Part shown: positions 26,179 to 31,379 of the stretch, piece by piece
Numbering within the stretch: the first letter of the stretch is position 1
How the letters are laid out: each line of letters begins with the position of its first letter
From: Victivallaceae bacterium
GTDB lineage: Bacteria > Verrucomicrobiota > Lentisphaeria > Victivallales > Victivallaceae
Length of the DNA stretch: 33,861 bases
Direction: 5' to 3'
NCBI GenBank assembly: GCA_028718375.1
Contig: JAQULZ010000013.1
Span: 1-33,861, forward strand
Made by a program: the position numbers and the translations under genes
Notes under the pieces: model-generated
Told to the model about the DNA's origin: nothing
What the model saw: only the letters and a program-made list of their open reading frames with translations
Database searches by the model: none

Positions 26179-26266
26179 TTTGAGGCGCATTATCGATTTA
26201 AAAAATATTACATCCTTCCGTCGGTTGAACGCTCCTTGGTCTTTGAGGCGTGTTGTCGATTGAAAA
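26179..26266. repeat. Imperfect 25-base direct repeat at the end of the 26208-26831 gene
   Basis: A unit beginning TTTGAGGCG and containing TCGATT occurs at 26179-26203 and again at 26242-26266, 21 of 25 positions identical, 63 bases apart. One copy lies beyond the stop codon, the other encodes part of the protein's tail. Confidence 0.6.
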
Positions 26267-26831
26267 GCAGCCATAGAATGCCGACGAAGAGCAGTGTGAT
26301 CAAGGAGAGAAAAAATTTATTTTCAAGCATTCGGTGATATTCCGCTGAAGCTTCATTGTAACGGAAAGATGGAGAAACCCACCATATCATCTGAGTAAGT
26401 CCGGCGATGACGAAACTGAAGCCGAACCACATCCATTTGCCAAAAAGAACAGCCCCGAAAATCGCGATAACCAGTCCGCAAATCCAGAAAAACCTGGTTT
26501 TGCCGATTTCCTCCGAACGACGTTCCCAGTTTTGGATGGCGGTTTTCAGTTCTCTTTCGGTTTTGAACGGCTCGTCGCAGTAGCGGTTGACCTTGCGCTT
26601 CGATTTTTTAAGCTCCGCGTCGGCTTTTTTTACTTCTTCCCGGGCTTTGGCGTATTCTTTTTCAAGGGCATCCAGGGACTCCGCGTTTTTAATTTTGTCC
26701 TTGAAGGTTGGATTGTATTTTTCCAGAACCGAATCCTGGTTCTGCAGCCAGCGAAGATAGGCGTGTCTGAGTGTTTGGGCGGTCAGGACGGATACGGCAA
26801 TAACGAGCATGACAATGACTATTGACCTCAT
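26208..26831 (-). CDS. Four-helix membrane protein with coiled coil, unknown function
   Basis: 207 residues, family not recognised. An N-terminal hydrophobic helix (3-20) is followed by a charged region with predicted coiled coil (44-80: FKDKIKNAESLDALEKEYAK onwards), then three hydrophobic helices at 114-131, 133-152 and 172-190, and a basic tail. Both the coiled coil and the helix content suggest an inner-membrane structural or sensing protein. Start at ATG 26831 is supported by AAGGAG 6 bases upstream. It is isolated, convergent with pyk and divergent from dnaK. Its C-terminal coding end carries one copy of the 25-base direct repeat, so the tail may be a recent addition. Confidence 0.75.
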   Translation of the reverse strand: MRSIVIVMLVIAVSVLTAQTLRHAYLRWLQNQDSVLEKYNPTFKDKIKNAESLDALEKEYAKAREEVKKADAELKKSKRKVNRYCDEPFKTERELKTAIQNWERRSEEIGKTRFFWICGLVIAIFGAVLFGKWMWFGFSFVIAGLTQMIWWVSPSFRYNEASAEYHRMLENKFFLSLITLLFVGILWLLFNRQHASKTKERSTDGRM

Positions 26832-26932
26832 GATTTTCTCCTTGATGAGTTGATTGGTTTAAAAGTAAAAACTGCCATTGGCGTATTTTCCCTTTTGTGA
26901 TTCAACTTTAATCTGTTCTGGGTGTAATTCCC

Positions 26933-27027
26933 CGCCCCTCTGGGGCGTTCCACCCGGACCAAATTTTCGGCCCGCCCGGCAGGGCGTGGAAGTTCGGGCG
27001 TAATACCCCGCATGCTCTGCATCGGGG
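26933..27027. repeat. Cluster of GC-rich palindromes (REP-like)
   Basis: CGCCCC/GGGGCG (26933-26947, loop TCT), CGCCC/GGGCG (26973-26986, 4-base loop) and CCCCG.ATGC/GCAT.CGGGG (27006-27027, loop TCT, one bulged C). All stems are perfect apart from the bulge. No transposase is nearby. Confidence 0.6.
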
Positions 27028-27096
27028 ATAGCCTGAACGGCAGAAAATTTTTTATTACATTAGCAGGGTTATAAGTTTTGACAAGGAAAGTTTCCT

Positions 27097-27130
27097 CATT
27101 TGAGACAATGATTGTCGTGGTTCTCAAATG
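27097..27130. promoter_or_regulatory. Nested dyads; the inner one resembles a Fur-family box
   Basis: Outer arms CATTTGAGA (27097-27105) and TCTCAAATG (27122-27130) are perfect complements. Inside and overlapping the left arm is GACAATGATTGTC (27104-27116), a perfect 6-1-6 palindrome. It matches the 13-base core of the Fur/PerR-type TGATAATnATTATCA pattern at 11 of 13 positions. A TTGACA hexamer (27078-27083) lies just upstream without a matching -10. Confidence 0.45.
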
Positions 27131-27207
27131 GCTGAACGATGGATGGCAGGGTACCGTTCATCCTTTGTGCTCCGCGCTCGGCGGGAACGTTCGAATTTCT
27201 GCATTAA

Positions 27208-27259
27208 ACTGTGCCATTCTGGCGCAATCGTGTGCCGCTGTGACTGCAACTGGCACAGT
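27208..27259. promoter_or_regulatory. Inverted repeat ACTGTGCCA / TGGCACAGT, possible activator site
   Basis: Perfect 9-base arms at 27208-27216 and 27251-27259, with a further TGTGCC at 27231-27236 between them. The centre is about 115 bases upstream of the start site predicted from the sigma-54-like promoter, the usual distance for an enhancer-binding activator. It does not fit the NifA pattern TGT-N10-ACA. Confidence 0.4.
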
Positions 27260-27321
27260 AAAATGACCCGCCCGGATGATTTTCAACGTTTCCAATGCCC
27301 GTTTTCCCGTTTTTTTATAAA

Positions 27322-27338
27322 TTGGCATGATCATTGCT
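27322..27338 (+). promoter_or_regulatory. Sigma-54 (-24/-12) promoter upstream of dnaK
   Basis: TTGGCATGATCATTGCT. Against the sigma-54 consensus YTGGCACG-N4-TTGCW every fixed position matches except one C to T in the -24 element. GG (27324-27325) and GC (27336-27337) are exactly 12 bases apart. Predicted start is about 27349, giving a 45-base leader to dnaK. A TATAAA (27358-27363) downstream could be a sigma-70 -10, but its -35 is poor. Confidence 0.6.
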
Positions 27339-27393
27339 CGTTACCCTTTTTCAGTAATATAAAATTTTTTGAGATTTAAGGAGATCCTGATTT

Positions 27394-29319
27394 ATGGCTA
27401 AAATACTTGGCATAGACTTGGGCACCACCAATAGCTGTATGGCGGTGATGGAACACGGGGAAGCGAAAGTGATCCCCAATGCGGAAGGGAATCGTACCAC
27501 CCCTTCAATCGTAGCTTTTACCAAAAGCGGGGAACGGCTGGTCGGGCAGACCGCGAAACGCCAGGCTGTGACCAACCCCAAACATACTGTTTTTTCAGTA
27601 AAACGTTTCATGGGACGCAAGTATTCCGAAGTCGGCGGGGAACGGCATCTGGTCCCGTATGAAGTGGTCGAAGCCAAAAACGGCGACGCTCATATCAAGA
27701 TCGAAGGCCGGACTTATTCACCGCCGGAAATTTCGGCGATGATTCTCCAGAAACTCAAGATCGATGCCGAAGCCTATCTCGGCGAGGAAGTGAAACAGGC
27801 GGTGATCACTGTCCCGGCCTACTTCAATGACAGTCAGCGCCAGGCTACCAAGGATGCCGGTAAAATTGCCGGCCTGGAAGTCCTGCGCATCATCAATGAA
27901 CCGACTGCCGCCTCCCTGGCCTACGGACTGGACAAGAACAAGGAGGAAACCATCGCGGTATACGACCTCGGCGGCGGAACCTTTGATATTTCCATTCTCG
28001 AAATCGGCGACGGGGTGTTCGAAGTAAAAGCCACCAACGGCGATACCCACCTCGGCGGCGATGACTTCGACCAGGTGGTTATCGATCATCTGGCGACCAC
28101 ATTCCAGAAGGAGAACGGGGTCGACCTGCGCAAAGATCCGCAGGCGCTCCAGCGCCTCAAGGAAGCGGCGGAAAAAGCCAAATGCGAACTTTCCACCAGC
28201 ATGAGCACTGACATCAATCTGCCGTTCATCACCATGAATCAGGATGGGCCGGTTCATATGAATATGAGCATCAACCGGTCGGATCTGGAACAATGGTGCG
28301 ATCCGCTGCTGGAACGGTCGAAGGCGCCTTGTAAGAACTGCTTGCGCGACGCCGGCATTTCGACTTCCGAGGTTAAGGAAGTTATCCTGGTCGGCGGGAT
28401 GACCCGGATGCCTAAAGTTCAGGCCATGGCCGGCAGTATCTTCAGTAAGGAACCGCACAAAGGTGTTAATCCGGATGAAGTCGTCGCCTGCGGCGCGGCG
28501 ATCCAGGGCGGCGTGCTCGGCGGTCAGGTCGAAGACATCGTGCTGCTGGACGTAACGCCGTTGTCGCTCGGCATCGAAACCATGGGCGGCGTTTTTACCC
28601 GGCTGATCGAACGCAATACGACCATTCCGACCCGGAAGAGCGAAATCTTTTCCACCGCAGCGGACAACCAGCCGTCCGTGGACATTCACGTCCTCCAGGG
28701 CGAACGCGAAATGGCCAGCGCCAACAAGACTATCGGCCGTTTCCGGCTGGACGGAATTGCACCGGCGCCGCGGGGCGTGCCCCAGATCGAAGTCGCTTTC
28801 GACATCGATGCCAACGGCATCCTGCACGTGACCGCCAAAGACCTGGGTACCGGTAAGGAACAGAAAATCACCATTACCGCGAATTCCGGTCTGAGCAATG
28901 ATGAAATCGAAAAGATGGTCAATGAAGCTAAATCCCATGCTGCCGAGGATAAAGCGGCTAAGGATAAGGTCGAAACCAAAAACAAGGCCGATTCCATGAT
29001 CTATCAGACCGAAAAACAGTTGAAGGAATTCGGCGATAAAGTTCCGGCCGAAATCAGACAGCCGGTTGAAGACGGAATATCCAAGCTCAAGAAGCAGCTT
29101 GAAAACGACGATACCGACGGTATGAAGGCGACTATGGCGGACATTGAGCAGCACCTGATGAAGTTCGGAGAAAAAATCTACGAACAGCAGCAGGCTGGAG
29201 CCCAGGGAGCTCAAAGTGCTCCGGGTGACCAGGAAACTTCTCCGGATGCCGGCAATTCTTCCGGCGGCGGCAAGGACGACGGCATTGTCGATGCCGAAGT
29301 CATTGATGACGACAAATAA
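27394..29319 (+). CDS. dnaK: Chaperone DnaK (Hsp70)
   Basis: ATP-driven cytoplasmic chaperone for unfolded polypeptides. 641 residues, full length. ATPase motifs: [11 protein letters not shown]-type start ([19 protein letters not shown]), [65 protein letters not shown]. The linker is VLLLD-like ([18 protein letters not shown]), followed by the substrate-binding beta domain, helical lid and the C-terminal signature ending EVIDDDK. AAGGAG lies about 9 bases before the ATG. grpE and dnaJ are not adjacent; groES-groEL follow. No CIRCE (TTAGCACTC-N9-GAGTGCTAA) precedes it; a sigma-54-like promoter does. Confidence 0.98.
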
Positions 29320-29328
29320 TGATTAAAT

Positions 29329-29370
29329 CCGCAGGAAATCCTTCAAAAAAGGGTGGGGGATTTCCTTCGG
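29329..29370. promoter_or_regulatory. Hairpin between dnaK and groES
   Basis: Arms CCGCAGGAAATCC (29329-29341) and GGATTTCCTTCGG (29358-29370) pair over 13 bases with one mismatch around a 16-base loop. It lies nine bases after the dnaK stop. It may terminate or attenuate dnaK transcripts before the groESL unit; the following bases are AT-rich but not a T-run. Confidence 0.5.
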
Positions 29371-29377
29371 ATATTAT

Positions 29378-29383
29378 TATAAT
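29378..29383 (+). promoter_or_regulatory. Possible -10 hexamer for groESL
   Basis: A perfect TATAAT lies 36 bases before the groES ATG, but the correctly spaced -35 region is G-rich (part of the hairpin) and does not resemble TTGACA. It could need an activator or a different sigma factor. Confidence 0.3.
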
Positions 29384-29418
29384 CAAACAAACCCATTAAT
29401 CTTAAAAGGAGTACTACT

Positions 29419-29715
29419 ATGGCGAAAGTCAAAGTAAAACCGCTTGGTGACCGAGTCCTGCTGGAAGCAGTGGAAGTTGCCGAACAAGTCAAAGGTGGTA
29501 TCGTGATTCCCGATTCCGCAAAAGAAAAGCCCCAGGAATACAAAGTGATCGCTCTGGGTACCGGCAAAGTCGACGACAAAGGCAAGAAAATCGCTTTTGA
29601 CGTGAAAGCCGGCGACCTGGTACTGACCAACAAGTACGGCGGCACGGAAGTCAAAATTGACGACAAGGAATACAAACTCGTCAGCGCTGATGATATTTTA
29701 GCGGTACTGGTTTAA
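29419..29715 (+). CDS. groES: Co-chaperonin GroES
   Basis: Seven-subunit lid of the GroEL folding chamber. 98 residues, normal length. Conserved [32 protein letters not shown], with the mobile loop that contacts GroEL, then [50 protein letters not shown] is 7 bases before the ATG. groEL starts 26 bases downstream in the same transcript. Confidence 0.98.

Positions 29716-29738: not shown

Positions 29739-31379
<1,641 letters not shown>

Follow-up and report, generated by a model that had tools for sequence, protein, structure and literature searches.

A conserved predicted sigma-54 promoter upstream of dnaK and a probable NtrC-type heat-shock regulon in the order Victivallales

Proposed heat-shock regulon

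The dnaK gene of a Victivallaceae bacterium was found to be preceded by a predicted sigma-54 promoter and a palindromic upstream site, both of which were conserved in the order Victivallales. It is very probable from the sequence comparison that dnaK, and probably groESL, are transcribed by the sigma-54 polymerase with an NtrC-type regulator acting on the palindrome, and that clpB, the small heat-shock protein genes, htpG-dnaJ and the regulator's own kinase gene belong with them to the heat-shock regulon of Victivallales. This reading was built on the promoter, the palindrome, its phasing, the distribution of the regulator, the autoregulatory site and the absence of other regulators. A sigma-54 two-component proteostasis regulon appears to be the best reading of these features. 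The window, i.e. the whole stretch of DNA that was analysed, contained 33,861 nucleotides of contig JAQULZ010000013.1 (genome G000), and the features of its dnaK-groESL locus are given in Table 1.

Table 1. Coordinates in the window of the genes and of the predicted regulatory elements at the dnaK-groESL locus.
Feature	Position	Strand	Evidence
Putative upstream activator site TGTGCCATTCTGGCGCA, palindrome TGTGNCA-N3-TGNCRCA	27210..27226	+	0 mismatches
Possible second, weaker activator site, half-sites TGTGCCG (27231) and TGGCACA (27251)	27231..27257	+	8/12 matches each
Predicted sigma-54 -24/-12 promoter TTGGCATGATCATTGCT	27322..27338	+	Sequence match and conservation in relatives
Transcription start, inferred from the position of the -12 GC	27348..27350	+	
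dnaK (Hsp70, 641 aa)	27394..29319	+	Pfam HSP70, E=2.4e-269
dnaK-groES gap, 99 bp, with weak inverted repeat	29320..29418	.	Best sigma-54 match 7/13
groES (98 aa)	29419..29715	+	Pfam Cpn10
groEL (545 aa)	29742..31379	+	Pfam Cpn60

The -24/-12 promoter of dnaK

The initial annotation had described a near-consensus sigma-54 element before dnaK, and this description was borne out. The element TTGGCATGATCATTGCT was found to contain a single mismatch to YTGGCACG-N4-TTGCW (T instead of C at position 7), with the GG of the -24 part at 27324-27325 and the GC of the -12 part at 27336-27337, followed by the ATG of dnaK after 55 bp. The leader from the inferred start to the ATG was of about 45 nt, with the RBS AAGGAGA. 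Within the window alone the match was not significant, as four sites with at most two mismatches were found against 3.0 expected. The form YTGGCAYG-N4-TTGCW was found three times in the whole 2.85-Mb genome whereas its reversed control was not found at all.

The named close relatives of the dnaK were those of Victivallales and other Lentisphaerota. The alignment of dnaK upstream regions from related genomes, which had been proposed together with the element, was made with 53 Victivallales genomes, and the -24/-12 element was found to be kept. The best site scored at least 11/13 in 52/53 genomes against about 8.7 for shuffled sequences, and since the best site was taken from 300 bp the single scores are slightly inflated, which does not explain the invariance of the core TGGCA and TGC nucleotides in 53/53 genomes. 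Among the control upstream regions 11/207 reached 11/13, some of these 11 being in fact regions of dnaK or clpB. The absence of rpoN had been named earlier as evidence that would speak against the element, and rpoN was found to be present in this genome (PF04552, E=5.1e-61) with an intact ARRTVAKYR box. The promoter call is convincing because the element is conserved in 53 genomes, and its prediction as a sigma-54 promoter was confirmed by the comparison and not by the window alone.

The groES gene was found downstream of dnaK in 44/53 relatives. No sigma-54 element was found in the dnaK-groES gap and groESL is therefore probably read through from dnaK, so that the co-transcription of groESL with dnaK is plausible. 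An inverted repeat (GGAAATCC...GGATTTCC) was found between the two genes at 29325-29370, without a T run after it, and might serve in transcript processing or in partial termination. A divergent 207-aa ORF without Pfam match was found to adjoin dnaK on the minus strand (26211-26831).

The palindromic site upstream of the promoter

The palindrome TGTGCCATTCTGGCGCA was found to start 112 bp before the -24 element and was the sole exact copy in the 2.85-Mb genome. The dnaK regions of 47/53 Victivallales genomes were found to contain the palindrome upstream of the promoter at 10/12 or more, and in the other six it was below this threshold. The C6-A7 and T11-G12 nucleotides of the palindrome were almost invariant and position 5 was free. 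Two activator sites were often present in the relatives.

The distances from the palindrome to the -24 element were found to be 57-58, 67-70, 78-82, 88-92, 101-105, 112-115, 123-126 and 131-136 bp and so on, with a periodicity of about 11.2 bp; none of 2000 jittered sets attained this. The phasing persisted when one genome per genus was used and was also found, more weakly, for clpB. Phasing of this kind is predicted for an activator that faces the polymerase across a DNA loop.

The candidate activator

In the dnaK loci that were scanned, flanking sequence of up to 3 kb contained no activator gene. A survey of enhancer-binding proteins in 11 genomes showed that the activator-poorest of these, G029 and G039, contain two such proteins each. 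The only activator common to both was an NtrC-type response regulator; the second activator of G029 was a non-GAF protein and that of G039 was of the NifA type. The NtrC-type regulator was present in 56/61 genomes and in 39/39 genera (G000:C6:43808-45166 in the genome of the window). It was found to contain the Pfam domains Response_reg, Sigma54_activat and HTH_8, i.e. a receiver, an AAA+ domain with GAFTGA and a Fis-type HTH, and in an alignment of seven sequences the catalytic and phospho-acceptor motifs, REC, GAFTGA and HTH were conserved.

The partner kinase was found to contain PAS, HisKA and HATPase_c domains (Pfam, in relatives) with invariant HEIGNP, and its gene adjoined the regulator gene in many relatives; in G000 no kinase gene was found beside the regulator gene. 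The alignments showed no obvious membrane segment in the kinase, whose signal may be a state of the cytoplasm. In 15/20 genomes the kinase gene was preceded by the palindrome, scoring 10/12 or more, without a sigma-54 promoter. A site in this place is typical of autoregulation and links the NtrC-type regulator to the palindrome.

The initial annotation had mentioned the NifA-type gene that is cut by the left edge of the window, and a real sigma-54 promoter served by another enhancer-binding protein, e.g. this NifA-type (GAF) one, would have only a small probability of being the correct explanation. The gene does lie within the same window and several relatives contain such proteins, whereas G029 (97% complete) was found to keep the dnaK site and promoter with the NtrC-type and the non-GAF proteins as its only activators and no NifA-type protein. 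The palindrome was found instead before the kinase gene of the NtrC-type system, and the NifA site, TGT-N10-ACA, is one base shorter than the palindrome found here. The NifA-type gene was consequently set aside as the activator of dnaK.

The non-GAF enhancer-binding protein gene of G029 (L258, contig C22) was surrounded by three sigma-54-like elements, and the dnaK activator site accompanied none of them. A sugar-isomerase-like gene was found directly before the NtrC-type regulator gene in L056:2889-3800, L208:4263-5210 and L210:4223-5197, and in G012 and G037 such a gene was found between the kinase and the regulator genes.

Other genes with the site or the promoter

Among the clpB upstream regions of the relatives, 19/30 scored 11/13 or more for sigma-54, and 15 of these 19 also contained the activator site at 10/12 or more. 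The palindrome and a sigma-54 element preceded htpG-dnaJ in one genome (G046). In G000, two hsp20 genes and clpB were clustered; one sigma-54-like element preceded hsp20 (TTGGCACAGACAATGCT) and another clpB (CTGGCACGTATGATGCT), and the activator sites there were weak or absent. Isolated matches to the palindrome in G012, G045, G048 and G051 had no recognisable target or sigma-54 element and were treated as chance.

The palindrome would belong very improbably to an unrelated factor, of the CRP/FNR type or a repressor, that also controls the kinase gene. The form TGTGA-N7-TCACA resembles a CRP site and the palindrome stands before the kinase gene without sigma-54, but the free position 5 and the almost invariant C6-A7 and T11-G12 nucleotides are unlike those of CRP, the helical phasing to the sigma-54 promoter at 57-163 bp is as would be expected of an enhancer site, and the targets of the palindrome are chaperones.

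Classical heat-shock regulators

Textbook accounts place dnaK under an alternative sigma-70-family factor or a repressor. HrcA was found in 0/61 genomes (7/14 of the controls were positive) and RpoH above the curated cut-off in 0/61 genomes (2/14 of the controls). No CIRCE match was found in the window with up to three mismatches allowed, in agreement with the earlier claim that dnaK lacks this element. The usual heat-shock regulators thus appear to be missing in Victivallales, as judged from the search for HrcA and RpoH.

A coarse scan of 26830-27400 found no promoter-like sigma-70 site. Sigma-70-family factors other than RpoH were found to exist, and they could add a second dnaK promoter missed by the coarse scan. 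An incidental -24/-12 match with dnaK driven by a sigma-70-family promoter is hardly credible. In its favour, one such match is near chance within the window and other sigma-70-family factors exist, but the -24/-12 core was invariant in 53/53 genomes and no sigma-70 site, HrcA/CIRCE or RpoH was found.

Proposed mechanism

The sigma-54 polymerase would wait at the -24/-12 element of dnaK, followed by the binding of the phosphorylated NtrC-type regulator to the palindrome, from where it would loop to the polymerase and open the dnaK promoter by its ATP hydrolysis. Looping and ATP-driven opening of the promoter are the general mode of NtrC-type activators. The PAS histidine kinase would be the partner of the regulator, and the same regulator would also act, depending on the member, on clpB, the small Hsps and htpG-dnaJ, and on its own kinase gene. 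The signal would be heat or misfolded protein, as suggested by the targets alone. The binding, the sign of the regulation, the role of heat as the signal and the groESL read-through are the proposed parts of this reading. The earlier proposal that dnaK is under RpoN and an enhancer-binding activator is strongly supported by the order-wide -24/-12 element, the conserved upstream site, the presence of an intact rpoN and the lack of both HrcA and RpoH.

It was further considered that the whole order has swapped the classical regulators for one autoregulated soluble two-component system with sigma-54, in which damaged protein or the load on chaperones is sensed directly by the kinase, with dnaK(-groESL), clpB, hsp20 and htpG-dnaJ as the genes driven; this wider proposal may hold or fail with equal probability. 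Throughout the order, dnaK seems to be served by an ATP-driven, enhancer-dependent promoter and a two-component system, from which a chaperone response that is tightly off and strongly inducible, and a soluble sensor kinase for heat or misfolding, are predicted. An otherwise anonymous conserved regulator pair would gain a function by this. The cultured Victivallis vadensis is a member of the same family and makes the reading testable.

Comparison with known systems

Enteric NtrB/NtrC consists of a soluble PAS kinase and a REC-AAA-Fis regulator with 17-bp palindromic sites of the TGCACC type at nitrogen genes. The system found here was similar in its soluble PAS kinase, its REC-AAA-Fis regulator and its 17-bp palindromic site, whereas the sequence of the site was different and the predicted targets were chaperones. 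In Myxococcus xanthus, HsfA/HsfB is likewise a pair of NtrC-type regulator and kinase and is linked to the heat-shock gene lonD, not to dnaK.

Chlamydia trachomatis was reported to contain a sigma-54 promoter at hrcA-grpE(-dnaK), beside a sigma-66 promoter and HrcA, and an activator, CtcC, without a DNA-binding domain and with a regulon of mostly developmental genes (PMC7482065, PMC8762339). Chlamydia, of the same superphylum, is thus similar in its sigma-54 promoter at the dnaK operon, its two-component NtrC-family activator and its lack of a classical heat-shock sigma, whereas it keeps HrcA and the sigma-66 promoter. As CtcC has no DNA-binding domain, no site of the palindrome kind is expected in Chlamydia. 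A 2025 survey of Planctomycetota and Bacteroidota predicted a sigma-54 cluster of GroEL, GroES, GrpE, DnaK, DnaJ and IbpA (PMC12316311), and its passages on these genes likewise place heat-shock chaperones behind predicted sigma-54 promoters. The main text of the survey does not contain the terms 'Lentisphaer' or 'Victivall', and its chaperone passages name no activator or activator site. Nothing relevant was found in the literature on Victivallis heat shock. The control of chaperones by sigma-54 is therefore known as a kind, whereas its use across a whole order, with the activator and site described here, is new within what was found.

Related elements beyond the dnaK locus

A perfect sigma-54 promoter was found at 7149 in L049:5523-9988 (contig C42 of G000). 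It was flanked by a divergently oriented gene for an enhancer-binding protein and by 2-oxoacid:ferredoxin oxidoreductase-like genes, and the dnaK activator site was not present there as an exact copy. Sigma-54-like elements were found 48-53 bp before dnaK in L117 of KSB1 and L128 of Thermonema rossianum (CTGGTATGGAATTTGCA and TTGGCATATTCATTGCT, respectively). In four loci of Phycisphaerae/Planctomycetota (L119, L121, L124 and L140) dnaK was preceded at 45-53 bp by a -24/-12-like element, together with a common site like TCTGCCAAATTGACATA 81-83 bp upstream, and a related dnaK module may be present outside Victivallales.
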